A stretch of 64,000 bases of DNA from Henricia sp. BOLD:AAB3569 (lineage: Eukaryota; Echinodermata; Asteroidea; Spinulosida; Echinasteridae): assembly GCA_037783545.1 (NCBI GenBank), contig JBBELK010000165.1, positions 186,001 to 250,000 of the forward strand. The letters run 5' to 3'. A program made the translations under genes and the position numbers. Below are positions 3,800 through 63,290 of the stretch, in pieces. Position 1 is the stretch's first letter. Each line of letters opens with the position of its first letter. The notes beneath the pieces were generated by a model. That model was not told where the DNA came from. It searched no databases and worked only from the letters and a program-made list of their open reading frames with translations.

Positions 3800-3831
<32 letters not shown>

Positions 3832-18837: not shown

Positions 18838-18872
18838 TGAATTCAAATACAGAAATAAAACTAGAAACACAC

Positions 18873-36916: not shown

Positions 36917-36951
36917 CGACTCAATTTTCCTTTAATAAAATGATAACATAC

Positions 36952-37314
36952 CTTTTCCGATGACGTCAACATATCCGTCCACGATTCCAGACCCATCGAC
37001 CGACAGATGATACCAAAGTCGCGATTGGCCAGTCCCCACCGAACTGACCAATAGGGAACCATTCTCAGCAATGGTGAAGTTACCATGGTAATCATCAATC
37101 ATTACGATTTCGCCATTAGAAAACTTTACACCGATGATTCTTGTGTAGTTGTTTTCTCCAATGTCCACGGACCAGTAAACTGTCGCTCTTTCCAAACTAA
37201 CTGCAGACAGCAATTCTGCCGGGAAATCGATCGTTCGCTTATCGCCTTGAGAGACATTAAGGGTCTTGCTATAGTTGCTCGATGTTGAACCCTCTTCCCT
37301 TGGAAAATTGTCAT
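36952..37314 (-). CDS. Ig-domain exon D2, copy A (both canonical Cys replaced)
   Basis: Minus-strand exon with acceptor TTTCTTTCAAAG and donor AAAG|GTATGT, 363 nt, phase 1-1, encoding one V-like Ig domain of about 121 residues. Landmarks are VYWSVDIGE (C strand), GNFTIAENGSLLV (E strand) and QSRLWYHLSVDG (F strand). At the B strand it has TIDFPAEL where copy B has TIDCPAKL, and at the F strand WYH where copy B has WCH. Both disulfide cysteines are therefore substituted by aromatic residues. The exon is otherwise open and splice-competent. Confidence 0.7.
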
Positions 37315-37503
37315 CTTTGAAAGAAAAGTATTTTAAATAACAGGATGATTATTATAAAATAAAACCAAGACTGTTCTGCTTCAGTGTTTTCGTCCAGGTC
37401 CAATTGGATATGTTTGAACAAAGTGATGAAATGTATTCAAGGGCTGTCAGAAACTCGTTGTTTGGTTTTAAACCTGATTAAATGTGTGAATGAGCTGACC
37501 TCT

Positions 37504-38612
37504 GGGGCCAATTTCATGGCGCTGCTTAAGCGCTAGCTGAAAACATGTGCTTACTGTAGCAGAAAAGGTGTGCTAACGTTAAGGCTATTTCACGGCCGCG
37601 GCGTGCTTAAGCATGCGCGTGCTTGGAAACGGGCATTGTTGCGTCACTAGTGTTTAGCAAATTTTACCTCTGAAGCTAGCAAACTTTTGGCAGTGCTTAA
37701 AGGTACACACCGGCCTACTGTTTACGTAATTTAGTGATACAGCATATATGACAAAAATGTTTTGATGGTCCTTGTGAAAAAAGATCGTCAAAATGTCCCA
37801 TAATTAACCACAAAAGCTTAAAAGTAATAAAAACAGGTCGAGTTATACGCTTTACCAGCCGTTCACTATCGCGCGAGACTCACGACTTTGTCGGAAACAA
37901 TTCGCTCTTCACTTTGCAACTTTTGGCTTTGAATATCTCTAATTTTCTGCTGAAGATTTCAGTGGACAGCCTGGACGACCGAATGGGTTTTTCAGTTTTC
38001 CGTAGAGGAGCTGACATTCATGGTTTGTCTTCACAAAAGTACAATTGTAGTTTCACGACACTGTACCGGTTTTAGGCGGGCAACCGTGTGTGTGCCGTGG
38101 GGCTAAATGTCACATTGTCCAGAAGACTGTCCACGGTGGAACTCGCTTTGGTTCCTCAGACTTTGTGTCAATTTTATGTTCGATTTTTCAGAGTTATGTT
38201 TAACTTTGTTTCATAACCTGAATAAATAGTCTCTTTTGTCAAATACTCATAAATATCTTGAAAAAAATCAGAGCTGAATTTCAGGAGTAAACTGTGTATC
38301 AAACGGCCATATCATACGGCTAGAAATAAAACTAACTCCAAGGAAACATGATTTATCAGAATCTAGTTCCAATAAATCATGTGACCTCGATTTTTTGAAA
38401 AATACTAAAAAACGGCCAAATTTGGTGGTTTCTTTTTAGGTTCTCTGCAGTCTATTTCGGAAAGACTTTCAGAATCATGTATGGGTCTATTTCGAGCCCA
38501 AAATAGCCCAACAAAGCCGGTACCGTCCCATTAAGGTTACCGTCTTCATGAAATAGCCAGAGCCTCCGTTAGCACAAAATCGGCTGCTAAACAGCTCCAT
38601 AAAATTGGCCCC
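37504..38612. mobile_element. GGGGCCAATTTC-ended MITE, copy A, with nested element
   Basis: Left end GGGGCCAATTTCATGGCGCTG and right end CAGCTCCATAAAATTGGCCCC form imperfect TIRs. The interior is rich in CTTAAGC/GCTAAC words. It lies in the intron between Ig exons D1 and D2 and contains the TTAA element 37701-38530. The same arrangement in copy B (40564-56944) shows insertion before the cassette duplicated. Confidence 0.65.
37701..38530. mobile_element. TTAA-flanked DNA element (copy A)
   Basis: TTAA at 37697-37700 and 38531-38534. Ends AGGTACACACCGGC and GCCGGTACCGTCCCA (complement partly decayed). Same family as 13334-14148, opposite orientation. Nested in the MITE 37504-38612. Confidence 0.7.
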
Positions 38613-39127
38613 TGGAGTCAAGCATCTGCCAAACAGCCGTGGAAGCACAGGGGTTTGAAAGAAGGCATTTCAGGCAGATAGAGTGGTGCACCGTACCCTG
38701 CCTCAATGGCTTGTGCAGTCAGCCTTGCCCCAAAAAGTGTTTATACACATTACTGACCTACCGGTATGAAATGTGTTTACATGTAAAGCTTTTAGTCTTG
38801 ATCTTTCGATCAGAATATAATTTCTTTTTTCGAACTGTATATTTGTATTAATAATACATGTACATGTTTCAACCAAAATCAACTGAAGACCAACGGCAGC
38901 CTTAATCCTGGTTCATACTTCAAGCGAAAGCAAACGCCAACGTGACAATGAATTCAATGTCACAGCAAAGTTTTAGCGCCGCGAATTTGCAGAACGTTGA
39001 ACTACTTTGTAGTTTCAACTTGCACAAATCTTTGCCGCGAAATGTTTGACGTCAGATTTGTGTCAGATTCCTGTTAGCTTTCGAGTGAAGTACATGTACG
39101 AACAGGGCTTTAGTCAGCTTTACTCAC

Positions 39128-39475
39128 CAAGTACAGAGACTTCAACCGTTTCAGACCTCACTAGCGCAGTGTTGCCCATGGCCAATACTCTGCACACATA
39201 CTCGTCACCGTCTTTTGCCGTGACATTCCTGATGATTAGACCGTGTGAGTCCGACATACGATAGCGATCACTCAGGGTTAAGTTTGTGGCCCCTTTGAGG
39301 GTGCTAAACCGGGCCACTGTGACTTCCTGCGGTCCCTTCCGCCAATAGACGGTAATGTAGATCTCTCCCTGCTGCAGACTTGGACAACGAATGTGTTGTG
39401 TCTGGCCCATTTGTATGTAGGCCTTTATTGTACTCTGGTACAAAGCTTCCTTCTCATGTTTGACGGTTGTGTCAC
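39128..39475 (-). CDS. Ig-domain exon D1, copy A (Cys pair intact)
   Basis: Minus-strand exon with acceptor TTCCCCAAAG and strong donor CTTG|GTGAGT, 348 nt, phase 1-1. It encodes a V-like Ig domain: B-strand Cys in QHIRCPSLQQG, C-strand Trp in VYWRKGP, E-strand HGLIIRNV, and the classic DGDEYVC F-strand motif, ending in VEVSVLG. All hallmarks of a disulfide-bonded Ig fold are present. Extracellular ligand-binding or adhesion role is inferred from the fold and the downstream transmembrane exon; the ligand is unknown. Confidence 0.75.
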
Positions 39476-40011
39476 CTTTGGGGAATAAAGAATAATTGTG
39501 ATTAGCTTGGGCGAGTCTGGCACTTTCGGACGCAACTCCAATTCTAAAAAGAATCGCAACTCTATTTGGAATCAAACTTCCGTTTTTCACGGGAAAAGAA
39601 ATATACTTAGCACCAGTTAGTTAGTGCGCCCTCTGGCAACTGTTTGTTCATAACCTTTTTGACCTTGTTTCTCTCTCGTCGTCTTGTGTGTTCCGACACA
39701 GCGTGATTTTGTTTTATTAAAACAAGTTTAATCTCGTCCGTAAGTCTTGTATTTGGCCATGATTCGTTCGTGTGGAGTCCCCCATTAACTACTTAGTGGC
39801 GGAGCGTACGTGTTTCCTAACAGGGTTGTAGTCGAGTCTATCACAAGTCCAGAGCAATAAAATTACAAGTCCATGACAAGTCGCGCACCAGTCCGTCACC
39901 AGTCCAGTAACAAGAAGCAAAGGATGAACACGCACAAAAGAATGTCTTTGTTGGAGTACATTTGAATAGCTTTTGAACATGCTTAATTTTCCTTTAAAAA
40001 TGATGACATAC

Positions 40012-40374
40012 CTTTTCCTATGAAGTCAACATATCCGTCCTCGATTCGAGACCCATCGACCAACAGATGACACCAAAGTCGCGATTGGCTGGCCCCCACC
40101 GAACTGACCAATAGGGAGCCATTCTCAGCAATGGTGAAATTACCATGGTGACCATCAATCATTTTGATGTCGCCATTAGAAGACTTCACACCGATGATTC
40201 TTGTGTAGTCGTTTTCTCCAATGTCCACGGACCAGTAAACTGTCACTCTTTCCAAACTAACTGCAGACGGCAATTTTGCAGGGCAATCGATCGTTTGCTT
40301 TTGGCCTTGAGAGACATTAAGGATCTTGCCATATTTGCTCGATGTTGAACCATCTTTTCTTGGAAAATTCTTAT
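40012..40374 (-). CDS. Ig-domain exon D2, copy B (Cys pair intact)
   Basis: Same length (363 nt), phases and splice signals as D2 of copy A. B-strand Cys is in TIDCPAKL and F-strand Cys in RLWCHLLVDG; VYWSVDIGEND and GNFTIAENGSLLV are conserved. Several replacement differences from copy A occur in the C-C' and F-G regions. In transcript order it follows D1 of copy B across an intron of about 17 kb that contains the nested retrotransposons. Confidence 0.72.
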
Positions 40375-40711
40375 CTTTGAAAGAAATGTATGTTTAAAAA
40401 AAGGATGATTATTATAAAATAAAACCAAGACTGTTCTGCTTCAGTGATTTCGTCCAGGTCCAATTGGATCCATTTGAACAAAGTGATGAAATGTATTCAA
40501 GGGCTCTCAGAAACTCATTGTTTGGTTTGAAACCTGATTAAATGTGTGAATGAGCTGACCTCTGGGGCCAATTTCATGTCGCTGCTTAAGCGCTAGCTGA
40601 AAACGTGTGCTTACTATAGCAGAAAAGGTGTGCTAATGTATGTATTTCATGGCCACGGCATGCTTAAGCATGCGCGTGCTTGGAAACGGGCATTGTTGCG
40701 TCACTATAGTG

Positions 40712-41463
40712 TGTAACGGGAACCCCCTTATTGGGGGTTCGCTCGCCAGTTAGGGAGAGACAACTAACAAAATAAATGAATGCTGACAAACTGTTTCCGA
40801 ATAAATTTAGTAAATTATAATTTCCATATTTCCGGGCCTAAAATATACAGCTTCTCACAAGTATTTTGCAAAATAATTCAACAGATTGACTCGTCTGAGT
40901 ATCCAAGACACTCGGCTATAATAAATAAATAAACAAACTTACATATCCTGATGAAAAGAAACACTGACGAACGGCGGAAAATTAACAAACATATAACATT
41001 AGCTACGACAAACTTCTTGTAGCAAACTCAACATTATACACAATATAAGCGCCGCTCGCCAGCAGAGCTTGTGTCCCCAGCCACAGTAATCTCTAAAATG
41101 CCTCACCTAGAGTAAGGCACGAGGCCTTAAATAGACTGTATGTGTAGTCAAGCATTTAGCTGACTACACCCCAATTGATCTTTTGTATTTACAACAATTG
41201 CCATGCTTCAGCACTCCAAAAAAAAAGCCAGTACGCAGTACAAAGACATATATACCAACAGACACCAGTCTGTACAAAAGACATACCAATGGCTGGGTAA
41301 GGAACCACAAATTACAAAAGCCAGGTGGTACTAGAGTGAACAAATTCCAAACTGGAAAAGGAATGTCAGACATCTAAACATATGGCTAGGTTATGGCTGT
41401 ATAAAGAGATTAAATTAAACAGGTGGGTATATAAATAAAATAAAGTAAGTCTTTTCTGTTACA
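40712..41463 (-). repeat. Ty3/Gypsy 3' LTR (752 bp)
   Basis: Differs from the 5' LTR, by eye, only in two small indels: a 4-bp difference in an AT repeat (CATATATACC vs CATACC) and a 3-bp difference (GGTACTAGAG vs GGTAGAG). Such identity implies recent insertion. Confidence 0.93.
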
Positions 41464-41771
41464 TTTACCCTCCCCACTGAGAAGGCACGTCCTCGAGCCC
41501 AATTATTACAGTTACATCATACTAATTATACACATTTTTAAAAAGGTAGTTTCCATGCAGGCACGTAGAAACATTGAACTTGATCTATTTTGATCTTGAT
41601 GCTTATTATAATAAATACAGGGTGCAAAATTGCGATAATTTGATGACACAGGCGACGACTTGAAAAATAGCTACATTTTAGGTAAAACCAATTTTTTAAA
41701 AAGTGTTTACACTGGTCTGCAGCCCAATGGCACTATCAAAGATTGGCATTTCTATCGTCGTCATAGACAGT

Positions 41772-42221
41772 TCACATCACATAATTCCCCGTCTGCATCC
41801 AGGCAGGAGGTCTTGGCTGGCGATGTGGGCGATATGTCCGGCCGGTCCAATCGTCCACACCGTCAAGCTGTTGCTCCTCTTCTTGCTCGATAGGGTATAT
41901 CCCGGTAGGCTTATCTATTCCAGGCATCATGACGTCCGAGTCGGAGTACGTTCCACTCCCATCCCTTGGGGCTTGGCCTTCAGGCGTGTATCCCACGTCT
42001 ATCTCTGGCTCTGTCCCATACGATGCACTGTGTGGAATTCTGTCTCCCTCTGGAACGTCAATGCGTCCGGATGCCGTAGAGTTTCTATCCGGTGTGGCTA
42101 TGTTGCTGTCTCCATCGCCTGTAGGTGGAAGTTGCTCAGAAGAACTTGAAAGACAAGGCTTAAGTCTATCAAAATGAACTACAAGTCGTATATTGGTTTT
42201 TACATTTTTGATTCTATACAC
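41772..42221 (-). pseudogene. Gypsy integrase C-terminal tail, out of frame
   Basis: This frame starts in a YRIKNVKTN segment and contains VVHFDRLKP, typical of the integrase C-terminal module that precedes the 3' end of Gypsy pol, followed by an acidic/Pro-Thr-Ser tail with QEEEEQQLDG. The main pol frame ends at 42200 in a different frame. The DNA between the SPKLQS segment and this frame lacks the expected short GPF-like stretch, so a small deletion near 42250 has separated them. Confidence 0.7.
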
Positions 42222-44497
42222 GGCATCAGAAATTCGCTTAATAACAATGATTGTAATTTAGGACTTAGACCAACTTTCCTTACAGGCCTATACAACCAAA
42301 CTTTGTCATCTGGTTTATACGGATCACCTTTAAGTTTCGCATCATACAAACGTTTTTGACGTTTCTGTTCACCGCTAATATGTTTTCTAGCCATTTCAAA
42401 CGCCTTTTGCAAACGATCGTAAACTTCTGAAGCATATATTTCCGAATTTGCATATTCATTTTCAGAACCAGTATGTACAGCTAAAAGATCCAAAGGCAAC
42501 ATAACTTCTCTACCGAACATCATTCTGTTAGGGCTAACACCCGTTGTCTCCTGTTCGCTAGCCCGATAACTCATCATTACGTAAGGGATATGAACATCCC
42601 AATCTGATTGGTCTTCGCAAACGTACATGCTAAGCATCGCTTGAATGGTTCTATTGAATCTCTCCACGAGACCATCAGATTGCGGATGGTAAGCCGTGGT
42701 TCTTGTCTTATTGATACCCAGCAATCTACACACACTTTGAAACAAATTACTCTCAAAATTTGAACCTTGGTCTGTATGGAGGCTTAGAGGGACACCGTAC
42801 CGGCAAATAAACTGTTCTACAAGCACCTGTGCCACAGTCTTTGCTTCCTGGTTTCTCAAGGGATATGCCTCGGCCCATTTTGTAAAGTAATCCATTATCA
42901 CCAGTATGTAACGGTTGCCTCGTTTTGAACATGGCAACGGGCCAAGGATATCTAAGGCAATCCTTTCGAAGGGGGCTCCAACCAAAGATGGCTTAAGTGA
43001 ACTGCGTAATTTGGGAGACGGCATTTTTCTTTTGGCACAACTTTCACATCGTTTAACCCAACTGGCTACATCATTTCGATAACCGACCCAATAAAAGGAT
43101 CGCTGGGCCCCTACTTTGGCATTATGTGCTGTATACAAGACTTGTTTTCGCAAAGATCTAGGCACAACAACTTGCAGAAACGATGACAAATTATTCTCAA
43201 AATGTCTGTACAAAATACCTTCTTTTAACTCCAGCTGATCCCAAAGATACCAATAAGCTTTTGTCTCTCGGCTGTGACCTCCAATCGAACTGCCAGGTGG
43301 CCTTGCAGCGGAGTTCTTTTTCCAAAGTATCACTGGAGCCAACGCATCATCCTTCTGCTGGGCCTCCCGCAGTTCGACAGTACTCAAAGAAAAACTGTTA
43401 AGTTTAACATAGTTAATCGAGTTTTCTTCAATCTTATCCATTGGCATTCTGGAAAGTGAATCCGCATTTTTGTGCTGACTACCTGGTCTATAACTAATCT
43501 CGTAATCAAAAGCACTTAATGTTTCAATCCACCTAGCCAGTTGGCCTTGCACGTCTTTGAAATTACAGAGCCATCGTAATGAACCATGATCAGTACGTAT
43601 TTTAAATTTTCTTCCGTACAAATAGTGCTTGAAGTGTTTGACAAAATGCACAACAGCTAAAAGCTCTTTCTTGGTGACACTGTAGTTACGCTCGCTTTTG
43701 GACAACTTACGACTACTGTAACTAATTACTCTTTCTTGTCCTCCTTGGATTTGAGATAAAACTCCCCCAATACCCTGGTCACTAGCATCAGTATCTAGTA
43801 TGAATGGTTTAGAAAAATCTGGAAATGCTAGAATATTTGCCGTGGTGAGCTTAGTCTTTAGTTCCTGAAATGCAGCATTACATTGGTCTGTCCATTTATA
43901 ATTTACATCTTTATGTGTTAACTTGTGGAGTGGAGCTGCAATTTGGGCAAAGTTTTCAACAAAACGCCTGTAATAAGAACATAAGCCTAGAAAACTACGC
44001 AGTTCCTTTAAATTACAGGGTGCAGACCAGTCTAGTATTTTGTTGACTTTTTCAGGGTCTGTTGACACTCCTTCTTGGGACACCACATGTCCCAAGTATA
44101 GGACTTGTTTCTGAAATAAATTGCACTTTTTGGGCTTCAATTTAAGCCCTGCTGAGGACAGTTTATCAAAAACGTCACTCAGTCGTGACGTGTGTTCCTC
44201 AAATGATGAAGCAAAGATCAAAATATCATCAATGTACACTAAACAGGTCTGCCAATGTAACCCTGCTAACACACGCTCCATTAGTCTTTCGAATGTGCCA
44301 GGGGCGTTACAAAGCCCAAAAGGCATTACATTAAATTCGTAAAGACCTGTCCCTGTGGTAAAAGCTGTCTTACTCTTATCCTGTGGATCAACTTCGACTT
44401 GCCAGTAACCACTGGCTAAGTCCAAGGATGTAAACCACTGTGAGCCAGACAGAGCGTCAAGGCTATCTATCATCCACACGAGGAAGTGGATATGCAT
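42200..44497 (-). pseudogene. pol: Gypsy pol: RT (part), RNase H, integrase
   Basis: 765 codons. The RT palm contains FTSLDLASGYWQVEV, the MPFGLCNAPGTFERLM block and the catalytic YIDD near residue 87. RNase H begins at FILDTDASDQGIGG near residue 235. Integrase has LDILGPLP (first Asp, about 515), HTDQGSNFES (second Asp, about 576) and HPQSDGLVERFNR (Glu, about 610). The integrase zinc-binding region reads HNAKVGAQRSFYW...CESC; the usual stretch carrying the second His between Gly and FYW is absent. The frame is separated from the N-terminal RT at 44463-44497 by a 4-bp ATAG duplication that introduces a stop, so the polyprotein is not continuous. Confidence 0.9.
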
Positions 44498-44966
44498 CTT
44501 TATAAGTCACCTCATTCAATTTCCTATAGTCAATACAGAACCGAGTGGACCCGTCCTTTTTCTTGACTAAAACGACGGGACTAGCCCATGGACTATTGGA
44601 TGGTTTAATTACCCCTTTGTCCAACATTTCATCAATCTGTTTTTGTGCTTCAATCTTTTGATGATGTGGTAAACGACGAGCAGGTTGTCGTTTAGGGCGA
44701 GCATCCCCGGTATCTATACTGTGGTACACTTCATCAGTACGACCAAGTTCACCCGATTTTGAAAAAACACCCTGATTTTTACACAACATGTCTTTTAACT
44801 TATCCTTCTGTTCACATGTTAGTTCTTTAGAACAACGCTGGTATAAATCCTCTAACTCTGGGTCTAACTCTTTTTTGTCACCATCATTTTGATTATCATT
44901 GTTTATTTCATTTACTGATTGGAGGACAGCTACTTGAGTACCTTTGTAACATCGGTAAATGATCAC
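44463..44966 (-). pseudogene. pol: Gypsy pol: protease-RT linker and RT N-terminus
   Basis: The first codons derive from the BEL LTR. Gypsy sequence starts at the target site (44944) and continues through an acidic linker into the RT fingers ([30 protein letters not shown]). It ends at a TAG created by a tandem ATAG duplication just after the PLPRVDD motif. The reading frame upstream of the BEL insertion and this one are compatible if the BEL element and one target copy are removed. Confidence 0.88.
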
Positions 44967-45682
44967 AAAACTTGACTGGTTTATTCACTCTCGGGTACCG
45001 ACATACAACTGCCCTTTAATGCCACGACAGCTGCCTGATGCCACGTCAACTAGGATTTAAAATAAAGATAACAAATAAACAGTACTTAATAAACAGTAAA
45101 ACTCTGTAACAAGCTTCCAAAACACGGGCGCAGACAACACCACCGCGAGAGGGCGGTATAACCTGCAGCGGCGAGTAACGTTGCAAACTCGCCCCAGGTA
45201 AACACACGGGAGGGGGTGAAAATCCATCCAAAACTACAACACATTTAACTTTAAACAACTGTCCCATGAGTCTAGATAAACTGGGTAACTTTCCCCTTCA
45301 ACTGCAAGGGCTGCAAGGTATAGATGAAGGCAGAATTTATGCCAAATGTCCGACAAAAGTGTCACTAAAAGTTCACTGAACGGCAATGAAGCTAATGCCG
45401 GGGCGAAACTCCACTTATTTAACTTTCAAAATATGCGACACTAAAAACGTCAATTAAAAGCATCAAATAAAGCTAAATACTGTCCTTACCGCTAGTTTGG
45501 GATCCAGGGTCCTATGAAACCTTCAAAACAAAACAATTATTCTACAACCTTGGGGCAAAAAACGTTGCCAAAAGCATGAATGTAAAAACGATCATGCGAA
45601 CACGGTTTCCGCGATCCCGCATGTACATAATCCATAGCGCCCTCTATTGAGCACTCGCGCACCGTCTATTACCGTCGAAACA
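44945..45682 (-). repeat. BEL/Pao 3' LTR (738 bp)
   Basis: In element orientation it starts TGTTTCGACGG and ends GATGTTACA. Same sequence by eye as 52026-52763. Confidence 0.95.
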
Positions 45683-45812
45683 TCCCGGCTCCCTGCGGGA
45701 CGAAAGTCAGGAGCAATTATCACAAAACGATGCTCAAACTACATGTAAGTCAAACAAATGCTGCCTCCAAGAGTTATGTGAAGTCCACTCTCGACTCGCG
45801 AGGCAGGCGACG

Positions 45813-48800
45813 TTAGTCTGCTTCTAGCAAGAGGCACAGCTTGGTGATTGGCCTCCTCAGTTCTGATGACCCGATGCGTACTGTGACACTCCTCACCAGG
45901 CCGTCTTCACCTGGACTAGCGTCGATGACTTGGCCCATAGGCCATCTGTTCCGCACAAGGTTGCTGTCCGCGACAAGCACTACATCTCCAACTTTGATGT
46001 TCCGCATCTCCTTGTGCCACTTCTGCCGCTCCTGTAGTCTCACTAGGTATTCGCGGCTCCATCTCCGCCAGAAGACGTTCGTCAAGTATTGCACCTGTCG
46101 CCACTTTCTTCTCGGGTATAGATCTTCCTTGACAAAGACACCAGGGGGTAGCCTTTGGTCGGAGTCTAGGCGCAACAGATGGTTGGGCGTAAGTGCCGCT
46201 TCGTCTTCATAGTCGCTAGAGGTTTTGGTGATAGGTCTGCTGTTGAGGATTGCCTCTACCTCGCAGAACAGTGTCTGGAGACCTTCATCGTCGAGTTTAA
46301 TCGGCTGTTCTTTCATGACGCCGTACAGCACCTGTCTCGTTGAACGAATGAGCCTTTCCCAGGCTCCACCATGGTGGGAAGCTAACGGGCAGTTGAACTC
46401 CCACTGTATGCCTAACTGCTTCAGACTAGAGTCGATCCTGGCTTGGTTCCAGCCTTGAATCGCCTCACGCATTTCTCGTTCGGCACCTACCAAGTTAGTT
46501 CCGTTATCTGATCTCAGGAACTTGACGGATCTACGTGCACTAAATCTTCGCACTGCATTGATGCAAGAGTCCGCAGATAGGTCTTGCGCAACTTCCAGAT
46601 GAACAGCTCGACTAGCCATGCACGTAAAGATCACTCCGTAGCGTTTTAGAGAGCTACGACCCCGCTTGATCTGAAAAGGCCCAAAGTAGTCAGCACCGGA
46701 CTTCATGAAGGCTGGTTGGTCTGGTTCTAAACGCTCCTCGGGCAAGTTGGCCATTTTCTGTATCTGGAGGCGTCCTCGGTATTTACGACACAGCACACAC
46801 TTAGCAATGATGCTGCGCACCAGTAGACTGGCCCTTGGTATCCAATATTTGCGTCTCAGTTCTGTGAGGGTGCTGTTGGCTCCGAGATGTCCCACTTTCT
46901 GATGGGCACTGATGAGTATCAACCTTGACACTCGGGAATCCTTGGGGAGGATTATCGGATGCTTGACGTCTACTGGAAGCTTCGAGTGCCTGAGCCGTCC
47001 GCCAACCCTCAGCAGTCCTGCTTCATCCATCACGGGGTCAAGTTTACGTGCAGACTCGGCATGAGCATGGCTTTGCTGAACGTATCTGATAATCTCTGTG
47101 CCTGCCCTCTCCAATTCGTCGACACTGAGCGGTTCTGGACTCTTGTTCTTTGCTGTCTCTGGCTTAGAGCTGGATGTTTGACGCTCCCTGAAGAGCCTCT
47201 GGGCTCTTAGCACCCATGCCACGATCGTCCTCATTCGTCTCCAGGTTGAACATCGGTCGATCAGCTGCTCAACAGTCATGCAACCTTCGCATGTCTTTAT
47301 GGTAGTGGCATGGACTCGTTTCACTTCCGGGTCTTTCACAGGGAGGTTGTTGTCGATTGTTAGCCTTGGCCACATGGATTCCGACTCCCATAAGAATGCT
47401 GGCCCCTGAAACCAGAGTGTAGGATTCAGCTTGGAATGAAACCCCCTTGATGCGATATCTGCTGGGTTTTCCAAGGTCGGGACATACCGCCACTGTTCAA
47501 TGTTGGAACCCTCTTGTATGGTAGTGATGCGATTTGCCACAAAGGTGTGGAATCTAGTGGTCTTGTTGGCAATGTACCTCAATACGGTGGTACTGTCTGT
47601 CCAGAAGTAGATGTCGAAAGTCAACTCCATCTCTAAGGTAATCAATGTGACGAACTTGACCGCGAGGCTGGCTGCAGTCAGTTCCATCCTTGGAATAGTG
47701 ATCTTCTTGAGGGGGGCAACCCTTGATTTGCCCATAAGCAGATTGCAGAAGGTTCTGCCTAAATCATCCTCAAGTCGCGTGTAAATGGCGATGCCGTAGC
47801 CTTCGTTGGAAGCATCTGAAAATGCGTGCAGCTGGCAGGTCACAGGCTTCACGAAGTCACTTGGTCGCAGACTCCTTGGTAGTGACACCTTCTCCAGCTT
47901 GACAATGTCCTGCAGCCACTGCTTCCATACAGCCATTTCTTTGTCTCCAATCTTCTCGTCCCATCCTAGGTCTTGCTTACACAGCTGTTGCAGCATAATC
48001 CTAGCCGGAAGGATGAATGGACCTGCTAGACCCAACGGGTCGAAGATGCTGCTGACAACGGACAGAATGCCTCTGCGCGTTGCTGGGCGGTCCTTCAGAT
48101 TAACCTTAAACCCGAAGGTGTCCTCTACGGTATTCCAGAAAATACCCAATGCCCGTTCTGATTGTATTTGGTCATTGGCTTCGATGTTCAACTGCTGTGA
48201 CTTTGACCGTTCCTCTGGAGGAATCGATTTGTTCACTTTCTCATGATTACTGACCCACTTTAGTAGTTTGAAGCCTCCATGACTGCACACCTCCTTGACA
48301 ATTTTCCTGGTTTCCATAGCTTCCCCGGCATCAAAGACTGCCTTCAAATAGTCATCGACGTAGAAGCTTCTCATAATTTCAGGATGTTGGTTGTCTGCTG
48401 TGCATCTACGCAGGGCTGCAGAAGCACAAGATGGCGATGATACAGCACCAAATGGGTGTGACGTCAGACGATAGACTTCTGGTGGTCGGGAAATGTCTCC
48501 ATCTGGAAACCACAGATAACGTAGGCAATCTCGATGATGTTCAGATACCTTTACTTGAAAGAACATGCCCTCAATATCCCCCATGAGCCCGACTGATTGT
48601 TGCCTGAAGCGTAGCAGCACATCTACGACTGTGTTCGTGAGAGTGGGCCCTGGAAGGAGTGCGTCGTTGAGCGAGACTCCTCTGGTCTTGGCCGAGCAAT
48701 CGAATACCACTCTTATCTTGCCCGGTTTGTTGGGATTGTAGATGCCGTGATGAGGCATATACCATCGGTTCACTGCATCACTGCTGTCGTCGGTGGGCTC

Positions 48801-51800
48801 AACAAGCTTCTCTCCATACCCTTTCTCCATTAGTGAGTTCATGAAGGTCGTATAGTCATGGTGGAAGGTCGGATTGTTTCTTAGCTTCTTTTTCAATGAC
48901 ATCAAGCGGTTCATAGCTTGAGATTGGTTGTCTTCAAGCTTACAAGCTGGATCTCGGAAAGGCAGGTCGCATTGATAGTGACCGTCTACCAGCTTCAAAG
49001 ATCTATGAATGATCTCCTCAAATCGCTTGTCTTCAACTGAAGGCTCCTTGGTACTGTCCACCAGGCGCTCCGGAAAATCCATGTCCATGGAAGATCTCAC
49101 CAGGTCTTCCAACCTCTGAAGTTGTTCTGCCTCTGCTCTAACTGATGCTAATTGGTAGTTGGAAGAGTGACAGGGTTCATCTCCGCCTCTCACCATCCCC
49201 CATATTATCCATCCAAGCACTGATCTGGCTCCATGGGGTGCACCAACTGGCCCTGTCCTCAGTTCTCGTGGTGTGTAGGCGGCTGGAACGTTATTGCCTA
49301 TCAGCATCTGTACCTCAGCCTCAATAACTGGGAGCTTGATCCCTCTAAGGTGGTGATATACGTCAACGTCTTCTTGCGTTGGCATGAGATCTCTGGTGAC
49401 GGGCATCTCAGATTTGGTATAGACTACAGGGAGCTTTACCGTGGGACCTGGGTCCAGCCCGCACACTTCTAGTCCTGAAATACGGTAGGTCTTGAAATTC
49501 TGTGTCTGTCCCATGGTACTTAGTTCCATGGTGGTGGCCTTGCCGGTTACTCCAAGCTGCTGTGCAAGGTCCTTGGTGCAGAAAGTCACGTTGCTGCCTG
49601 GGTCAAGGAATGCGTAGGTCTCTACTGTAGTGTTAGTAGTCGGGGATCTGACCCTTACTGGAATGATGGCCATAGTGCAAAGACCTGCGCCGGCTCCCAT
49701 GTGGGAACTTGCCCTGTCCTTGGGTGGAGCTACGTATGTGGAACATGAATTCCCTTGTTCAGTGGTCTTGGGCGTCTGTTGCTTTAAGGACTCTTCTTCT
49801 ACCTTCTCATGATGTTCCCTGTCCTTATGTAGCACTGTGGGGTGCAGGGAGCTACACTCCTTGCACTTGGCTTTTGCTCTGCATCGTTTGCTCAGATGGC
49901 CGAACTTGAGGCAACCAAAGCAAAGCCCCTTGGACTTCAGAAACTGCAGCCTTTCTTCAATTGACCTTGCCTTAAGTTTCCGACATTCCTGCATCGAGTG
50001 AGCTGTACCCTGACAGAAACTGCATGGCCTAGAACTTGCTACATCAGTTGTCAATTTAGTGCCTGAATCAGTATAAGACAGTTTCTCGGATTCGCTGATC
50101 GGCTCAGATGCTCCGAAAGCACATCCAATTTTTCTGACCCGTGGCTGAGGGCGTCCTCCCACATTCGGTCTAGTTTCCTTGGGCTTGTATCCCAAGGCGA
50201 ATCGTCCATATACTGGGTCTGTTGCCTTCCTGGCTTCTCTTTGGACGAAGTCTACCAAGTGAACAAAGGTGACTGACTCGCCACCGTCCTTCTTATTCAT
50301 GACTATATTCCGCCATCTCTCGTGTAGATAGAAAGGGAGCTTGGACACCAGTCTCTTGATGTTCTCGGCATACTCCAAAACCCTTGCGGCATTCATGGAG
50401 TGAACTGCATTTTTGCACTCCATGAGGAATATTGCAAAGGCGTCAAGTCCAGATGGGTTATCAGGTCTGATTTCTGGCCAACCAAGAGCCCGCTGTATGT
50501 AAGCATTGGCCAGGAGATCCACATCTCCATACCGCTTTTCTAATTCTTTAAGGGCAGCCGGGTAGCCTACATCACCAGGGAGACAGCTATATCCATTTAC
50601 AATATGTTGTGGCTCTCCCTCCGTAAACTGCTCCAAGTAGTTCATCCTTTCATCATCGTCGACTGTGTTGGCGACAACTCTGGCCTTAAACTGGCGCATG
50701 AATCTCCTATACTCCAAGGGGTCTCCTTTAAACTTAGCCAGGTCTGAGCTAGGCTTCCTGATCTCCATCACTATGTGTTGGACTGCAGCAACAGTTGACG
50801 CCACGGAGGGGTTCTGATTTTCTGGGACATGAATTTCACTCGAGTAGGCACTTAACACTTGACCCTCATTTCCCTTACTACTTGACTGTCCTTCACAAGT
50901 TTGTTTTACGGTATTGCTTGTGGGGCTAGTTTTCTCTGCTGCTGTATTCTTGCTAGCTTCTTTAGTATCTTGATTGTGGGCCTCTTGTGAAAACTTGTTC
51001 ACAGTGCTTGTGGGTCCATCTGTAAGACGAGTGATGTCCGAATCTGGCGTCTGGGGCTGACCTTCTGCCTGGGCTTGAATGGACATGACGAATGATGATG
51101 CATCTTGTGATGTTACGGGTATATACTCTGGGGCGGCGGTATTAAAGGTTACGACTGTTGGCGACGTAGGTCTGGAAGGAAGTCGGGGTAAGGCACTCAG
51201 GTTTTGCTCGTCTCGAATTTCGCTCTGCTCCAGTTCGTCCAAGATTGCTGCTTTTGCACTGGAGACTTCCAGTTGTGTCCTGAGCTCCAGCTCTTCTTCT
51301 TTGTGCTTAAGTTTTAGCTCTTCCTTCTTTTTCTTGGCTTCAAACTGAAGCCTCTCTTCCTCCAACCCCTCTTTCTCTTTAAGTGCCCTACTACGGGCCA
51401 ATAACTCGGCTGTTTTCTGATGTTCCATTGCTCTGGCCATTGATAAGGAGCTTGAAATACGGCTTACAACTGAGCGAGAAGTACGCGACCTCACTGACCG
51501 CACACTGTCTCTATCCGGTACTCTGGTGTGCCACACTAGCCACTGATCTAGTGTAGCCTTAAAGTCCTGAAAACTGTTCAGCTCAGGTTGTAGTTCGGCC
51601 TCCACTGTAGTACGCCGATCTTCAGGGACTAGTGTTAAATATTCACGATGGTGAATCAAAAATGTTTCGTATTCTTGAAGCCATCTTGAATGCCTAACTC
51701 TGACTTCATCCACATCTGGGGGAAGTTTTAACAGCAATGGTTGAATGCTGTCCTTCATTTCGATAAGAGTCCGGGCATTGTCTCGCCGACTCTCCATCAG

Positions 51801-51881
51801 TGACTTGGTTTTGGCCCGTGTAGCCATGGTTTGGACTTTGGTTTCTTCGTCACTGTCGTGGGTTTGCATTATTTGCAGCAA
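45813..51881 (-). CDS. gag-pol: BEL/Pao gag-pol polyprotein
   Basis: 2022 codons, single frame. The Gag part has a Lys/Glu-rich coiled coil (about residues 165-230) and a Gag domain around KFKGDPLEYRRFMRQF (about 385). Cys/His knuckles follow (CSFCQGTAHSMQEC at about 620, CFGCLKFGHLSKRC and CKECSSLH). Protease has AFLDPGSNVTFC (about 759; DPGS rather than the commoner DSGS/DTGS). RT contains VVFDCSAK, GDIEGMFFQV and YVDD (about 1174). RNase H has AFSDASNEGYG (about 1355), MELTAA and WTDSTTVL. Integrase has HQKVGHLG...CVLC (about 1662), GADYFGPF (about 1730), RSDNGTN (about 1790) and HHGGAWERL (about 1838). A BEL-specific C-terminal domain ends near 2015. No stop or frameshift is seen. The ATG lies about 145 nt inside the 5' LTR. 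Confidence 0.97.
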   Translation of the reverse strand: MLQIMQTHDSDEETKVQTMATRAKTKSLMESRRDNARTLIEMKDSIQPLLLKLPPDVDEVRVRHSRWLQEYETFLIHHREYLTLVPEDRRTTVEAELQPELNSFQDFKATLDQWLVWHTRVPDRDSVRSVRSRTSRSVVSRISSSLSMARAMEHQKTAELLARSRALKEKEGLEEERLQFEAKKKKEELKLKHKEEELELRTQLEVSSAKAAILDELEQSEIRDEQNLSALPRLPSRPTSPTVVTFNTAAPEYIPVTSQDASSFVMSIQAQAEGQPQTPDSDITRLTDGPTSTVNKFSQEAHNQDTKEASKNTAAEKTSPTSNTVKQTCEGQSSSKGNEGQVLSAYSSEIHVPENQNPSVASTVAAVQHIVMEIRKPSSDLAKFKGDPLEYRRFMRQFKARVVANTVDDDERMNYLEQFTEGEPQHIVNGYSCLPGDVGYPAALKELEKRYGDVDLLANAYIQRALGWPEIRPDNPSGLDAFAIFLMECKNAVHSMNAARVLEYAENIKRLVSKLPFYLHERWRNIVMNKKDGGESVTFVHLVDFVQREARKATDPVYGRFALGYKPKETRPNVGGRPQPRVRKIGCAFGASEPISESEKLSYTDSGTKLTTDVASSRPCSFCQGTAHSMQECRKLKARSIEERLQFLKSKGLCFGCLKFGHLSKRCRAKAKCKECSSLHPTVLHKDREHHEKVEEESLKQQTPKTTEQGNSCSTYVAPPKDRASSHMGAGAGLCTMAIIPVRVRSPTTNTTVETYAFLDPGSNVTFCTKDLAQQLGVTGKATTMELSTMGQTQNFKTYRISGLEVCGLDPGPTVKLPVVYTKSEMPVTRDLMPTQEDVDVYHHLRGIKLPVIEAEVQMLIGNNVPAAYTPRELRTGPVGAPHGARSVLGWIIWGMVRGGDEPCHSSNYQLASVRAEAEQLQRLEDLVRSSMDMDFPERLVDSTKEPSVEDKRFEEIIHRSLKLVDGHYQCDLPFRDPACKLEDNQSQAMNRLMSLKKKLRNNPTFHHDYTTFMNSLMEKGYGEKLVEPTDDSSDAVNRWYMPHHGIYNPNKPGKIRVVFDCSAKTRGVSLNDALLPGPTLTNTVVDVLLRFRQQSVGLMGDIEGMFFQVKVSEHHRDCLRYLWFPDGDISRPPEVYRLTSHPFGAVSSPSCASAALRRCTADNQHPEIMRSFYVDDYLKAVFDAGEAMETRKIVKEVCSHGGFKLLKWVSNHEKVNKSIPPEERSKSQQLNIEANDQIQSERALGIFWNTVEDTFGFKVNLKDRPATRRGILSVVSSIFDPLGLAGPFILPARIMLQQLCKQDLGWDEKIGDKEMAVWKQWLQDIVKLEKVSLPRSLRPSDFVKPVTCQLHAFSDASNEGYGIAIYTRLEDDLGRTFCNLLMGKSRVAPLKKITIPRMELTAASLAVKFVTLITLEMELTFDIYFWTDSTTVLRYIANKTTRFHTFVANRITTIQEGSNIEQWRYVPTLENPADIASRGFHSKLNPTLWFQGPAFLWESESMWPRLTIDNNLPVKDPEVKRVHATTIKTCEGCMTVEQLIDRCSTWRRMRTIVAWVLRAQRLFRERQTSSSKPETAKNKSPEPLSVDELERAGTEIIRYVQQSHAHAESARKLDPVMDEAGLLRVGGRLRHSKLPVDVKHPIILPKDSRVSRLILISAHQKVGHLGANSTLTELRRKYWIPRASLLVRSIIAKCVLCRKYRGRLQIQKMANLPEERLEPDQPAFMKSGADYFGPFQIKRGRSSLKRYGVIFTCMASRAVHLEVAQDLSADSCINAVRRFSARRSVKFLRSDNGTNLVGAEREMREAIQGWNQARIDSSLKQLGIQWEFNCPLASHHGGAWERLIRSTRQVLYGVMKEQPIKLDDEGLQTLFCEVEAILNSRPITKTSSDYEDEAALTPNHLLRLDSDQRLPPGVFVKEDLYPRRKWRQVQYLTNVFWRRWSREYLVRLQERQKWHKEMRNIKVGDVVLVADSNLVRNRWPMGQVIDASPGEDGLVRSVTVRIGSSELRRPITKLCLLLEAD

Positions 51882-52025
51882 TTTTCTGTTGTTGATTTTC
51901 TCTCTTTTTTTGCAATTGATTCTAGGTGGTCTTCAATGTTACCTAAGGGTCACCAGTGTTGACTCGGGGTCACTTATCTCTGGGTCACTTCGGCACTATA
52001 ACTCTGGGTTACCATTAGCGTTGAC

Positions 52026-52763
52026 TGTAACATCGGTAAATGATCACAAAACTTGACTGGTTTATTCACTCTCGGGTACCGACATACAACTGCCCTTTAA
52101 TGCCACGACAGCTGCCTGATGCCACGTCAACTAGGATTTAAAATAAAGATAACAAATAAACAGTACTTAATAAACAGTAAAACTCTGTAACAAGCTTCCA
52201 AAACACGGGCGCAGACAACACCACCGCGAGAGGGCGGTATAACCTGCAGCGGCGAGTAACGTTGCAAACTCGCCCCAGGTAAACACACGGGAGGGGGTGA
52301 AAATCCATCCAAAACTACAACACATTTAACTTTAAACAACTGTCCCATGAGTCTAGATAAACTGGGTAACTTTCCCCTTCAACTGCAAGGGCTGCAAGGT
52401 ATAGATGAAGGCAGAATTTATGCCAAATGTCCGACAAAAGTGTCACTAAAAGTTCACTGAACGGCAATGAAGCTAATGCCGGGGCGAAACTCCACTTATT
52501 TAACTTTCAAAATATGCGACACTAAAAACGTCAATTAAAAGCATCAAATAAAGCTAAATACTGTCCTTACCGCTAGTTTGGGATCCAGGGTCCTATGAAA
52601 CCTTCAAAACAAAACAATTATTCTACAACCTTGGGGCAAAAAACGTTGCCAAAAGCATGAATGTAAAAACGATCATGCGAACACGGTTTCCGCGATCCCG
52701 CATGTACATAATCCATAGCGCCCTCTATTGAGCACTCGCGCACCGTCTATTACCGTCGAAACA
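52026..52763 (-). repeat. BEL/Pao 5' LTR (738 bp)
   Basis: Promoter-bearing LTR of the minus-strand element. Followed in element orientation by a leader of about 145 nt that contains repeated GACCC-type words before the ORF. Confidence 0.95.
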
Positions 52764-53405
52764 ACCTTTATACATTGTCAATGGTTCATTTGTCAAGTTC
52801 AGCATACGAATAGGTACGTGATTAGTTTTACTAGCACCAGAGAATGTTCGACCAATCAGTACACTGTTATCTTTAGCTACAAAACGTCCTGATGGCTCTA
52901 TTAACCCTTGCGTTATGCCCGTTTTTCTAGCATGCAGCTGTCCAGGGACCATAAATTCTTGCCCTTGCGGAATGGTTACCGTTTCCGCTACCGTAATTCT
53001 ACAACAGTTAGTGGTAATTACATTCTCCATGATTACTGTAACGTCGTATGTGCCGAATCTTAGCTTTTTCTTAGGTAAATCTAAAATTCCTTCGTGAAAC
53101 GAAAGAAAATCCAGACCCAAGATGCCAGCCTGAGTAATCGAGGCAACATAGATCAGATGACGTCTAACCAGTTTACCAAATCTAATTACTATTTCAGCAC
53201 TACCCACTACATCTAATGCTGTACCTTCGGCAGCTATAATGGACTTAGTACTAGCATGCAACGTCTCCCTTATATTCTGAGGTAATAACTCCCACGTATG
53301 CGGGTGTAAAATAGTCACTGAAGATCCGGTATCCACTAAGAATTTAACATGTGTACCATGAACGTTACCATGTACAAACATTGTACTCTGGGCCTGATTA
53401 TCCAT
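52725..53405 (-). pseudogene. pro: Gypsy protease, truncated by the BEL insertion
   Basis: Starts at an ATG that overlaps the gag stop (TAATG). The retropepsin active site FLVDTGSSVTIL lies at about residues 22-33, and the second hydrophobic-Gly motif is AGILGLDFLS. The last codons (52725-52763) come from the BEL LTR. Would normally continue into RT. Confidence 0.9.
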
Positions 53406-54520
53406 TATTGGCTGGGCACCGACCCCGTGCTCAGCCGAGCCCGGTTTTCCTGTGGTGCCGTGGACCTATTAGGCCGATCAGCCTGAGATTGTGATGGTAC
53501 AGACTGCATGTTATAAGGACACTCAAAATGCCTGTGACCTTCTAGTTTACAATTCCAGCAGATTAATGGTCCCTTAGGCTTTCTCGTTCTACTTTGTTCA
53601 AGGGCTACTTGGAGTTCTTTTACTGTCTGTTCCAACTGTTCAACCTTGTGTTTTAGCTCATCCTGATTCTGTTTATTTGGTAACCCTAAATTATCAGTGT
53701 AACTTTGACATGCATTGGCACCCATTCTCTGCAAAAAGTTAGCTTTATTATATTCTACCTGAAGAAAGGCCTCTTCTTCTAAAGCTATAGTAAGAGCTGC
53801 CCCTAGATCTTTAGGTTTAACTGGTCGGACCTGCATTCTGACATCGGGTGAGTCCAATGCTTCAATAAAATGATCTCTACCCAGCTCTTCTCGCAAAACA
53901 GCAGAGATGTCTGGATACGCCTTAGATACAAGTCTACGGATATCGCTTGCTAACTCGGGTAAACCTTCACCTTTTCTACGCGACCTTACTTTAAGTTGTG
54001 CTCTAAACAAACCCGTTTGCCCCTGTGGTGAAAATCTTCCTTTCAAAGCCTTAACGACTTCTTCAAAGTACATTTTACTGGTTTCAGGTAAGTCAGTATA
54101 GACCTGTAGGGCTGGGCCCCTTAATCTAACTGCAAGGAACTTGGTTTTCTGTTCCACGGTCCAACCATTTATCTGACTACATAAGTTTAGATTAGTTAGC
54201 CAATCTTCAAAGTTAGTTTTACCATCATAATTGTCAGGTTCTACGATTGGTTTGACTGGTTTCGATACATGCTGCATGGAACTACCACATTCAATATTAG
54301 GAGTACCAGAAACTAAATTATCACCACCTACATAAAGCCGAGCCTCTTGTGGATATGTCGTTGTTCTTTCCATGGGGGAGGACATTTGGCTGGGGACTGG
54401 AGGTCCCATGGGCCGAAACGACCTCAGCCGAGTCAATCTTTCTCTTTGAGCTACAATTTCACCTTGTAACCTTGCAATAGTATGGTCTAATTGACCTGCT
54501 AAATTTCTCCTTGGATTCAT
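53405..54520 (-). CDS. gag: Gypsy Gag
   Basis: 371 codons, intact. The N-terminal coiled-coil-like LDHTIARLQGEIVAQRERL is followed by a retrotransposon Gag core (FEDWLTNLNLCSQINGW, KFLAVRLRGPALQVY) at about residues 105-230. A second coiled coil (KHKVEQLEQTVKELQVALEQ) precedes one CCHC knuckle CWNCKLEGHRHFEC at about residues 320-335. The C-terminus is Ser/Gln/Arg-rich. Ends TAA, overlapping the protease ATG by one base. Confidence 0.92.
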   Translation of the reverse strand: MNPRRNLAGQLDHTIARLQGEIVAQRERLTRLRSFRPMGPPVPSQMSSPMERTTTYPQEARLYVGGDNLVSGTPNIECGSSMQHVSKPVKPIVEPDNYDGKTNFEDWLTNLNLCSQINGWTVEQKTKFLAVRLRGPALQVYTDLPETSKMYFEEVVKALKGRFSPQGQTGLFRAQLKVRSRRKGEGLPELASDIRRLVSKAYPDISAVLREELGRDHFIEALDSPDVRMQVRPVKPKDLGAALTIALEEEAFLQVEYNKANFLQRMGANACQSYTDNLGLPNKQNQDELKHKVEQLEQTVKELQVALEQSRTRKPKGPLICWNCKLEGHRHFECPYNMQSVPSQSQADRPNRSTAPQENRARLSTGSVPSQ

Positions 54521-54584
54521 GTTGGTTCAACAAACAAATTGAATGATGGGGTAAAATTTCGATCCCACCGCTGCCACCAAAAAC

Positions 54585-55329
54585 TGTAACGGGAACCCCC
54601 TTATTGGGGGTTCGCTCGCCAGTTAGGGAGAGACAACTAACAAAATAAATGAATGCTGACAAACTGTTTCCGAATAAATTTAGTAAATTATAATTTCCAT
54701 ATTTCCGGGCCTAAAATATACAGCTTCTCACAAGTATTTTGCAAAATAATTCAACAGATTGACTCGTCTGAGTATCCAAGACACTCGGCTATAATAAATA
54801 AATAAACAAACTTACATATCCTGATGAAAAGAAACACTGACGAACGGCGGAAAATTAACAAACATATAACATTAGCTACGACAAACTTCTTGTAGCAAAC
54901 TCAACATTATACACAATATAAGCGCCGCTCGCCAGCAGAGCTTGTGTCCCCAGCCACAGTAATCTCTAAAATGCCTCACCTAGAGTAAGGCACGAGGCCT
55001 TAAATAGACTGTATGTGTAGTCAAGCATTTAGCTGACTACACCCCAATTGATCTTTTGTATTTACAACAATTGCCATGCTTCAGCACTCCAAAAAAAAAG
55101 CCAGTACGCAGTACAAAGACATACCAACAGACACCAGTCTGTACAAAAGACATACCAATGGCTGGGTAAGGAACCACAAATTACAAAAGCCAGGTGGTAG
55201 AGTGAACAAATTCCAAACTGGAAAAGGAATGTCAGACATCTAAACATATGGCTAGGTTATGGCTGTATAAAGAGATTAAATTAAACAGGTGGGTATATAA
55301 ATAAAATAAAGTAAGTCTTTTCTGTTACA
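54585..55329 (-). repeat. Ty3/Gypsy 5' LTR (745 bp)
   Basis: Ends TGTAAC/GTTACA; nearly identical to 40712-41463. The primer-binding-site candidate TGGTGGCAGCGGTGGGAT lies five bases inside the element. Confidence 0.93.
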
Positions 55330-55381
55330 AGTGTTTAGCAAATTTTACCTCTGAAGCTAGCAAACTTTTGGCAGTGCTTAA

Positions 55382-56862
55382 AGGTACACACCGGCCTACT
55401 GTTTACGTAATTTAGTGATACAGCATACATGACAAAAATGTTTTGATGGTCCTTGTGAAAAAAGATCGTCAAAATGTCCCGTAATTAACAACAAAATTAA
55501 CATAAAATTAATAAAAATTGTCAATAGCCCAGTTATACGCTTTACCAGCCGTTCACTATCGCACGAGACTCACGACTTTGTCGGAAACGATTCGCTCTTC
55601 ACTTGGCAGCTTTCGCTTTAGATATCTCTCATTTTCTGCTGAAGATTTCACTGGACAGCCTGGACGACCGAATGTGTTTTTCCGTTTTCCGTAGAGGAGC
55701 TGACATTCATGGTTTGTCTTCACGAACGTACAATTGTAGTTTCACGACACTGTACCGGTTTTAGGCGGGCAACGTGTGTGTGCCGTGCGGCTAAATGTCA
55801 CATTGTCCGGTAGACTGTCCACGGTGGAACTCGCTTCAGTTCGTCTGACTTTGTGTAAAAATTTTATGTTCGATTTTTCAGAGTTATGTTTATACTTTGT
55901 TTCAAAACTGAATAAATAGTCTCTTTTGTCAAATACTCTGATGAATTGAGCTGAATTTGGATGCAGTACTGCAGTAATAAACTTTAGGAATAAACCTTGT
56001 ATCACACGGCCATACGGCTGGAAATAAAACTAACTCCAAGGACACATGATTTAATAGTCCTGGCCCAAGACTATTCTAGTCGATATTGGTTTGTGTACGC
56101 GTTGGCCATTCCCAGTAGTGCGCCCTCTTGCAGCACCAACAGACCAGCCCTTTGCGCGACTAGAATAGTCTTGGGAAACTCTCCCGGAAGGTTTAACTTT
56201 TTCTTTGTTTTTGCCTAGGCTTTCCTAGGGAACCAATCAGCGAGTGACTCAAATACACCGCGTGCACGCGCTTCAAATGGTTTGAAAAATATAAGGCGGC
56301 TTACAAGAAACATCGAACATGACCGTTTTATCATTGCTAATATTTTCGGTGGCATAATTTTTCTGGCAAATGTTTGCGAATATATTTACAAACATGTTTG
56401 CAAAGGCGTATGACATCGCAAAATACATTTGTTTATGAAGATAATTGCGACATTGCAAATATTTGCAAAGATATCTGTGGTATGCCATGTCCCTTGTGTG
56501 CCATCATAAAACCCTGTGCAGCTATTTACATACAACGGTACCGCTCCCAATGCTGAACTTCTGGGAGAGTTTCCCAAGACTATTCTAGTCGCACAAAGGG
56601 CTGGTCTGTTGGTGCTGCAAGAGGGCGCACTACTGGGAATGGCCAACGCGTACACAAACCAATATCGACTACAATAGTCTTGGGCCAAGACTAATGATTT
56701 ATCAGAATCTGGTTCCAATAAATCACGTGACCTCGATTTTTAATAAATTCACGTGACCTCGTTTCTTTTCAGGTTCTCTGCAGTCTATTTCGGAAAGACT
56801 TTCAGAATCATGTATGGGTCTATTTCGAGCCCAAAAAAGCCCAACAAAGCCGGTTTGTCCCT
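55382..56862. mobile_element. TTAA-flanked DNA element (copy B), interrupted
   Basis: TTAA at 55378-55381 and 56863-56866. Orthologous to 37701-38530 of copy A, so it predates the cassette duplication. Interrupted by the 9-bp-TSD element at 56055-56693. Confidence 0.75.
56055..56693 (-). mobile_element. Long-TIR MITE, TAGTC ends, second copy
   Basis: Same family as 17297-17963, opposite orientation. Flanked by ATGATTTAA (56046-56054) and ATGATTTAT (56694-56702), 8 of 9 identical. Copy A of the cassette shows the empty site ATGATTTAT at 38348-38356. TIRs of about 140 bp include GTGTACGCGTTGGCCATTCC. No coding. Confidence 0.88.
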
Positions 56863-57419
56863 TTAAGGTTACCGTCTCCATGAAATAGCCGGAGCCTCCG
56901 TTAGCGCAAAATCGGCTGCTAAACAGCTCCATGAAATTGGCCCCTGGAGTCAAGCATCTGCCAAACAGCCGTGGAAGCACAGGGCCGGGCTTGAAAGAAG
57001 GCATTTCAGGCAGAGTGGTGCATCCTGCCTCAATGGCTTGTGCAGCCAGCCTTGCCACAAAAGGTGTTTATACACATTACTGACCTATAAAATGTGTTTA
57101 CATGTATAAGCTTTCAGTCTTGATCTTTCGATCAGAATATAATTTCTTTTTTTGAACTGTATATTTTCATTAATAATACATGTTTTAACCGAAATCAACT
57201 GATGACCAACGGCAGCCTTAAGCCCGGTTCATACTTCAAGCGAAAGCAAACGCCAACGTCACAACAAAGTTTTCGCGCCACGAATTTGCAGAACGTTGAA
57301 CTAGTTTCAACTTGCACAAATCTTTGCCGCGAAATGTTTGACGTCAGATTTACATCAGATTCCTGTTAGCTTTCGCGTGAAGTACATGTACGAACAGGGC
57401 TTTAGTCAGCTTTACTCAC

Positions 57420-57740
57420 CAAGTACAGAGATGTCAATCGTTTCAATCCTCATCTGCGCTTTGTATTTGGTCACTCCAATGAACACATACTCGTCACCGT
57501 CTTCTGCCGTGACATTCCTGATGATAAGACCATGCGAGTTCGACATACTATAGCGATCACTCAGGGTGAAGTTTGTGGCCCCTTCGAGGGTGCTAAACCG
57601 GGCCACTGTGACTAACTGCAGTCCCTTCCGCCAAAACACGGCAGTGTAGATCTCTCCCTGCCGCAGACCTGGACAACAAATGTGTTGTGTCTGGCCCGTT
57701 TGTATGTAGGCCTTTGTATTCTGTCCAACTGTTGTGTCAC
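57420..57740 (-). CDS. Ig-domain exon D1, copy B (F-strand Cys lost)
   Basis: Minus-strand exon with acceptor CCCCCAAAG and donor CTTG|GTGAGT, 321 nt, phase 1-1. B-strand Cys is retained (QHICCPGLRQG), as are FWRKGLQ and HGLIIRNVTAEDGDEYV. The F-strand Cys is replaced, reading DGDEYVFIG instead of DGDEYVC, with a different following loop (VTKYKAQMRIET). Ends VLG like copy A. It could still fold through the conserved core, or use the extra adjacent Cys of the CC pair differently. Confidence 0.72.
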
Positions 57741-58021
57741 CTTTGGGGGGAAAAAAGTACATGTATAATTGCGATTAGCTTGGGCGACTCCGGCACTTTG
57801 GACACAACTCCGATTCCAAAAAGAATCGCAACCCCATTCGGAATCAAACTTCCATTTCAAAAAATATACTGATGAGCGTGTTTCCTGGTTGTAGTGGAGT
57901 CTATTATACAAGTCTATCACAAGTCCAGAGCCGATAAAATCCATGACAAGTCCAGTAACATGAAGCAAAGGATGAACACGCACAAAAGAATGTCTTTGTT
58001 GGAGTTCATTTGAATAGCTTG

Positions 58022-60262: not shown

Positions 60263-60264
60263 AG

Positions 60265-61540: not shown

Positions 61541-61544
61541 GTGA

Positions 61545-63288: not shown

Positions 63289-63290
63289 TA

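Follow-up and report, generated by a model that had tools for sequence, protein, structure and literature searches.

Two of four immunoglobulin-type exons in a tandemly duplicated cassette of Henricia sp. lack the canonical cysteine pair

When an immunoglobulin (Ig) V-type exon is duplicated and one copy no longer encodes the cysteines (Cys) of the hallmark disulfide bond, does this mark specialisation, decay, or simply rapid divergence? The question is raised by a locus on the minus strand of a 64,000-nucleotide stretch of Henricia sp. BOLD:AAB3569 (contig JBBELK010000165.1, positions 186,001 to 250,000), referred to here as the window, in whose coordinates all positions are given. A comparison of the window with itself shows a tandem duplication unit of approximately 3.05 kb in two copies, each carrying two Ig exons, D1 and D2. 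In transcript order these are D1-B (57420-57740) and D2-B (40012-40374), the first V-type and second V-like exons of the upstream cassette (copy B, 39982-58020, split by inserted elements), followed by D1-A (39128-39475) and D2-A (36952-37314), their counterparts in the downstream cassette (copy A, 36920-39972), all on the minus strand. The explanation that we favour, with about an even chance of being correct, is that these exons encode fast-diverging V-type receptor ectodomains whose reading frames have stayed open and in which Cys loss is one part of a general divergence.

The residues at the positions in question are those reported in an earlier, sequence-only reading of the locus. At column 30 of the D2 alignment D2-A has TTC (Phe) and D2-B has TGC (Cys), at column 101 the codons are TAT (Tyr) and TGT (Cys), respectively, and at column 94 of the D1 alignment, in strand F, D1-A has TGC (Cys) and D1-B has TTC (Phe); every such difference in Cys state between copies is a difference of one base. 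Three of the eight disulfide-forming Cys positions are occupied by another residue, two in D2-A and one in D1-B, and the canonical strand-B/strand-F pair is present in D1-A and D2-B. D2-A contains no Cys in the whole domain. In D1-B the Cys of strand B is retained and a second one lies adjacent to it (HICCP, versus HIRCP in D1-A); this domain contains no others. The proposal that both partners of a disulfide changed together is borne out by D2-A, where both are gone, but not by D1-B. The strand-C Trp is found in all four domains, and all five N-glycosylation sequons of the Cys-complete copies are retained in their partner copies. Judged from the Ig family at large, Cys would be the ancestral state. 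A tblastn search with the four domains detected no third copy in the window that could polarise the Cys changes, and searches for relatives, made with both alignments in viral contigs and with just the D1 alignment in genome contigs, gave no confirmed match, these being collections unlikely to contain them.

Under free divergence, Cys loss as such and its complementary arrangement are both ordinary outcomes. All four reading frames remained open in just 1832 of 40000 neutral simulations, and in 1243 of these 1832 at least one Cys was lost. Exactly one altered copy per domain arose in 259 of the open simulations, with the altered copies in different cassettes 119 times and in the same cassette 140 times. 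The arrangement that had been put forward as a complementary loss is thus obtained about half the time by chance, and we do not retain it as a selected pattern. Loss of the whole pair, as in D2-A, is a mildly unusual outcome, seen in a fraction of 0.0462 of runs in which all 35 changes were placed on one copy. A selected reciprocal specialisation, in which each cassette would join a domain that has its disulfide to one that has none, with the order reversed between the cassettes and flexibility or binding altered, could draw on this paired loss and on the rarity of the exact observed state: two Cys lost in D2 and one in D1, in different cassettes, occurred in 8 of the 1832 open simulations, but this pattern was chosen after the data had been seen. 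We consider such specialisation very unlikely, given the even split just described, the loss of only one partner in D1-B together with its extra Cys, and the position of the D1 change within a block of many changes.

Evidence that the frames have been maintained comes from the structure of the exons and from their insertions and deletions (indels). All four frames are open and all four exons have consensus-like splice signals, in agreement with the sequence-only reading; the acceptors are pyrimidine-rich and end in AAAG, and the donors are GGTGAGT in the D1 exons and GGTATGT in the D2 exons, scoring 8.6 and 9.8 bits, respectively, with a donor matrix. Over 684 sites the exon alignments contain two indels, neither of which shifts the frame, versus 25 indels in 2041 intron sites (two piece-edge gaps excluded), 17 of which are not multiples of three. 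At the intron rate the probability of zero exon frameshifts is 0.003-0.007, or 0.010 with local rates. Taken together with the small number of neutral simulations in which all frames stayed open, these tests point, weakly to moderately, to some selection that keeps the frames open.

Judged only by their substitutions, the exons seem either unconstrained or subject to diversification and constraint in balance. The copies differ at 46 of 321 aligned sites in the D1 exon, 35 of 363 in the D2 exon, and 173 of 2041 in the cassette introns. Divergence of the D1 exon exceeds that of the introns, both when these are pooled (Fisher P 0.0018) and when the adjacent one is taken singly (P 0.0037), and D2 exon divergence is not different from that of the introns (P 0.48 for all, 0.17 for the adjacent one). 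The ratio of nonsynonymous to synonymous rates (dN/dS), a measure that the sequence-only reading had suggested and that was computed here for the copy pairs, is close to 1 with wide limits in both D1 and D2.

A number of observations weigh against maintained receptor ectodomains. The dN/dS values (D1, 1.01 with bootstrap limits of 0.57-2.02; D2, 1.19 with limits of 0.55-4.05) and the flat distribution of differences over codon positions (29/28/29 in the codon alignment) would fit an absence of constraint equally well. D2 alone provides no indel evidence, as its local frameshift expectation is 1.0, and the absence of stops is weak evidence for any single exon (P 0.19-0.30). D1-B would be left with two adjacent Cys lacking the canonical partner. 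AlphaFold models of the two altered domains, built from two-sequence alignments, are of low confidence for D1-B (predicted local distance difference test, pLDDT, 53) and unusable for D2-A (pLDDT 38). Upstream of D1-B, a search of 57741-64000 yielded no convincing leader exon that ends in a phase-1 donor.

Early pseudogenisation would explain much of this: if one or both cassettes had become dispensable, substitution would be neutral, the frames would be open through luck or because little time has passed since decay began, and the Cys would have been lost by drift. Such decay is a real possibility, though one that we hold tentatively. It is consistent with the even spread of differences over codon positions and the dN/dS near 1, with exon divergence that is not below that of the introns, with stop-free single exons being likely enough by chance, with the lack of a Pfam Ig match above the cut-off in D1-B and D2-A, and with the frequency at which open neutral simulations lose at least one Cys. 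The rarity of four open frames under neutrality, the shortage of frameshifts relative to intron rates, and the consensus splice sites of all four exons argue against it. The earlier view of the locus as divergence rather than decay draws limited support from its frames, in-frame indels and splice sites, and is weakened by the substitution profile and by the stop test per exon; it is favoured here but not proved.

Large insertions within the copy B intron might also be read as a sign of decay. D1-B lies approximately 17 kb from D2-B because a long terminal repeat (LTR) element, a second one nested in it, and a small element with inverted ends stand between them. The outer LTR element, Gypsy-like, occupies 40712-55329 on the minus strand, with terminal repeats (40712-41463 and 54585-55329) that are 99.07% alike; the nested element, BEL-like, occupies 44945-52766, also on the minus strand, with terminal repeats (44945-45685 and 52026-52766) that are 99.87% alike, both labels resting on a reading of open reading frames (ORFs) rather than on a family search. 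The small element, at 56054-56693 and present in copy B only, has 136-base inverted ends that are 97% alike. Since the cassette introns are only about 91.5% alike, the LTR insertions appear much younger than the duplication and cannot have started the divergence. The nested LTR element looks younger than the outer one and contains an ORF, at 45813-51932, that stays open for 2039 codons. A false tandem duplication produced by assembly of two haplotypes is thought unlikely for a 3 kb unit whose copies abut directly and whose introns have diverged by 8.5%.

Divergence between the cassettes is distinctly patchy, and this bears on where the altered residues came from. Differences are clustered across the cassette (dispersion index 3.0) and within the introns alone (2.97), neither value being reached in 5000 permutations. 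The Cys/Phe codon of D1 lies in a diverged block at the 3' end of the exon (39140-39190, minus strand) in which 18 of 48 aligned columns differ, versus 28 of the remaining 273 D1 columns (permutation P 0.00065). The densest block is intronic, at 38247-38294, where 22 of 48 columns differ, a count that no exon block of equal length reaches. Divergent pieces, including the strand-F segment of D1-B, may have been brought in from unseen paralogues by gene conversion or recombination, in which case the Cys states would derive from different family members. Besides the patchiness itself, which extends to the introns, the D1 rates fit this account: dS and dN are raised together (0.179 and 0.181), and both fall when the last 23 codons are removed (0.122 and 0.116). 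No donor copy was detected in the window by tblastn, nor in collections of viral and prokaryote sequence, where none was to be expected, and patchiness can also arise from alignment near indels, so that conversion is a candidate source only. We regard it as somewhat unlikely; it would be compatible with maintained, fast-diverging ectodomains as well as with decay.

Recognition of the four domains as Ig folds is uneven. D1-A matches the Pfam V-set family (PF07686) at 29.3 bits, above the cut-off of 26, and a phmmer search against solved structures returned Ig proteins, the first being Contactin-1 (E 4.8e-6). D2-B matches V-set at 17.6 bits (E 0.0047), under the gathering score of 26, and its phmmer search against solved structures gave nothing convincing, the best match being a phage fibre (E 0.017). 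D1-B has no V-set match and only a weak match to I-set (E 0.16), and D2-A has no Pfam Ig match. Profiles of D1 and D2 are only weakly similar to one another (hhalign E 0.056, probability 1%). Structure prediction, which the sequence-only reading had proposed for all four domains, was run for D1-B and D2-A; the low-confidence D1-B model resembles V-type Ig folds, the first match being CD2 (1qa9_A; Foldseek E 1.9e-5). Domain 1 of CD2 itself lacks the canonical disulfide bond.

The exons can be placed in a plausible gene. All four are phase 1 at both ends, and any one could therefore be joined to any other in frame. A candidate transmembrane exon at 27206-27453 on the minus strand has a phase-1 acceptor matching the D2 donor and one strongly hydrophobic stretch, and ends either at a stop (27206-27208) or by a phase-1 splice-out after 27241. 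Only 536 bases separate D2-B from D1-A, which indicates that copy B is without a membrane exon of its own of the usual kind; for the same reason a two-gene model was judged less likely. The most natural predicted transcript would thus run D1-B, D2-B, D1-A, D2-A and then the transmembrane exon, and the matching phases would make in-frame use of one cassette or the other possible. The presence of intron-bearing Ig exons suggests that the window is animal DNA.

Two possible leader peptides were set aside. One, a hydrophobic ORF from 58009, was rejected on account of its phase-2 donor, as listed, and its location inside an inverted-repeat element; the evidence for the other, a short candidate in phase 1 at 59372-59331, is too weak for a claim. 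An inverted-repeat stretch of approximately 200 bases with 21-base ends (86% alike) is found at 57888-58087; the duplicated unit has its 5' end (58020) within this stretch, which also contains the hydrophobic ORF, similar in appearance to a signal peptide. Pfam scans of the three minus-strand frames of 7201-36945 and 55331-64000 detected no Ig family; these scans, which excluded 1-7200, 36946-55330 and the plus strand, missed D1-B within the scanned part and are thus weak for divergent domains, so that other Ig exons may have been missed.

Elsewhere in the window, an inverted copy of mid-intron cassette sequence (69-75% similar) is found at 13342-14152 and has no detectable Ig exons. It was ruled out as a third cassette copy, as it covers cassette intron sequence only, and is probably an old dispersed repeat. 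A tandem repeat with a spacing of approximately 285 bases occupies 15998-17048, and a separate set of repeated segments in direct orientation, 91.8-98.5% alike, occupies 17964-25222.

Our favoured explanation can be set out as follows. The minus-strand gene would probably encode an animal single-pass receptor in which a segment of about 3 kb with two V-type Ig exons was duplicated in tandem. After duplication the exons would have diverged as much as the introns or more while their frames stayed open, as happens in recognition receptors that evolve fast under selection that is weak or diversifying. This general divergence would have cost D2-A both of its disulfide Cys and D1-B one, gene conversion may account for some of the patchiness, and the altered domains, which retain the strand-C Trp, may fold without the disulfide. 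A more specific version, which we consider distinctly improbable, would make this a polymorphic recognition receptor whose two-domain V-type cassettes diversify by positive selection and conversion, disulfide loss being tolerated through the bonded neighbour domain and the cassettes differing in flexibility. As it stands, the locus is a modest and ordinary case of duplicates diverging rapidly, with no evidence of a coordinated swap. If expressed, it would show, as a natural experiment on a small scale, how duplicated V-type Ig domains cope when the disulfide that characterises them is lost.

A comparison with known systems shows both likenesses and disparities. Literature searches turned up no paper that we recognised as dealing with this locus. 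Invertebrate allorecognition receptors such as Alr of Hydractinia have Ig ectodomains in tandem that diverge fast, a segment that spans the membrane, and Ig domains of which some are poor in Cys; the likeness would lie in these general features. Relative to the V-set domain (PF07686), D1-A falls above the cut-off, the D1-B model is closest to CD2, and the strand-C Trp is universal, while D1-B, D2-A and D2-B fall under the cut-off and D1-B has adjacent Cys without the canonical partner. Natural V domains without a conserved Cys are known, as exemplified by antibody ABPC48 (PMC5734687). The nearest published architecture found is that of the chelicerate shortened Dscam genes, which have 5' cassettes in tandem, each coding for one or two Ig domains (PMC4835542). 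As in those genes, tandem two-Ig cassettes would here precede a shared membrane part, with phases that permit the use of either or both, the splicing being predicted in our case. The Dscam cassettes differ in that they consist of two or four exons with a promoter before each (PMC4835542); the Henricia locus has one exon per Ig domain, two copies, and no convincing leader exon found in 57741-64000. No fibronectin domain turned up in the minus-strand frames scanned with Pfam (7201-36945 and 55331-64000). We offer the shortened Dscam genes as an analogy in architecture and do not claim membership in that family.

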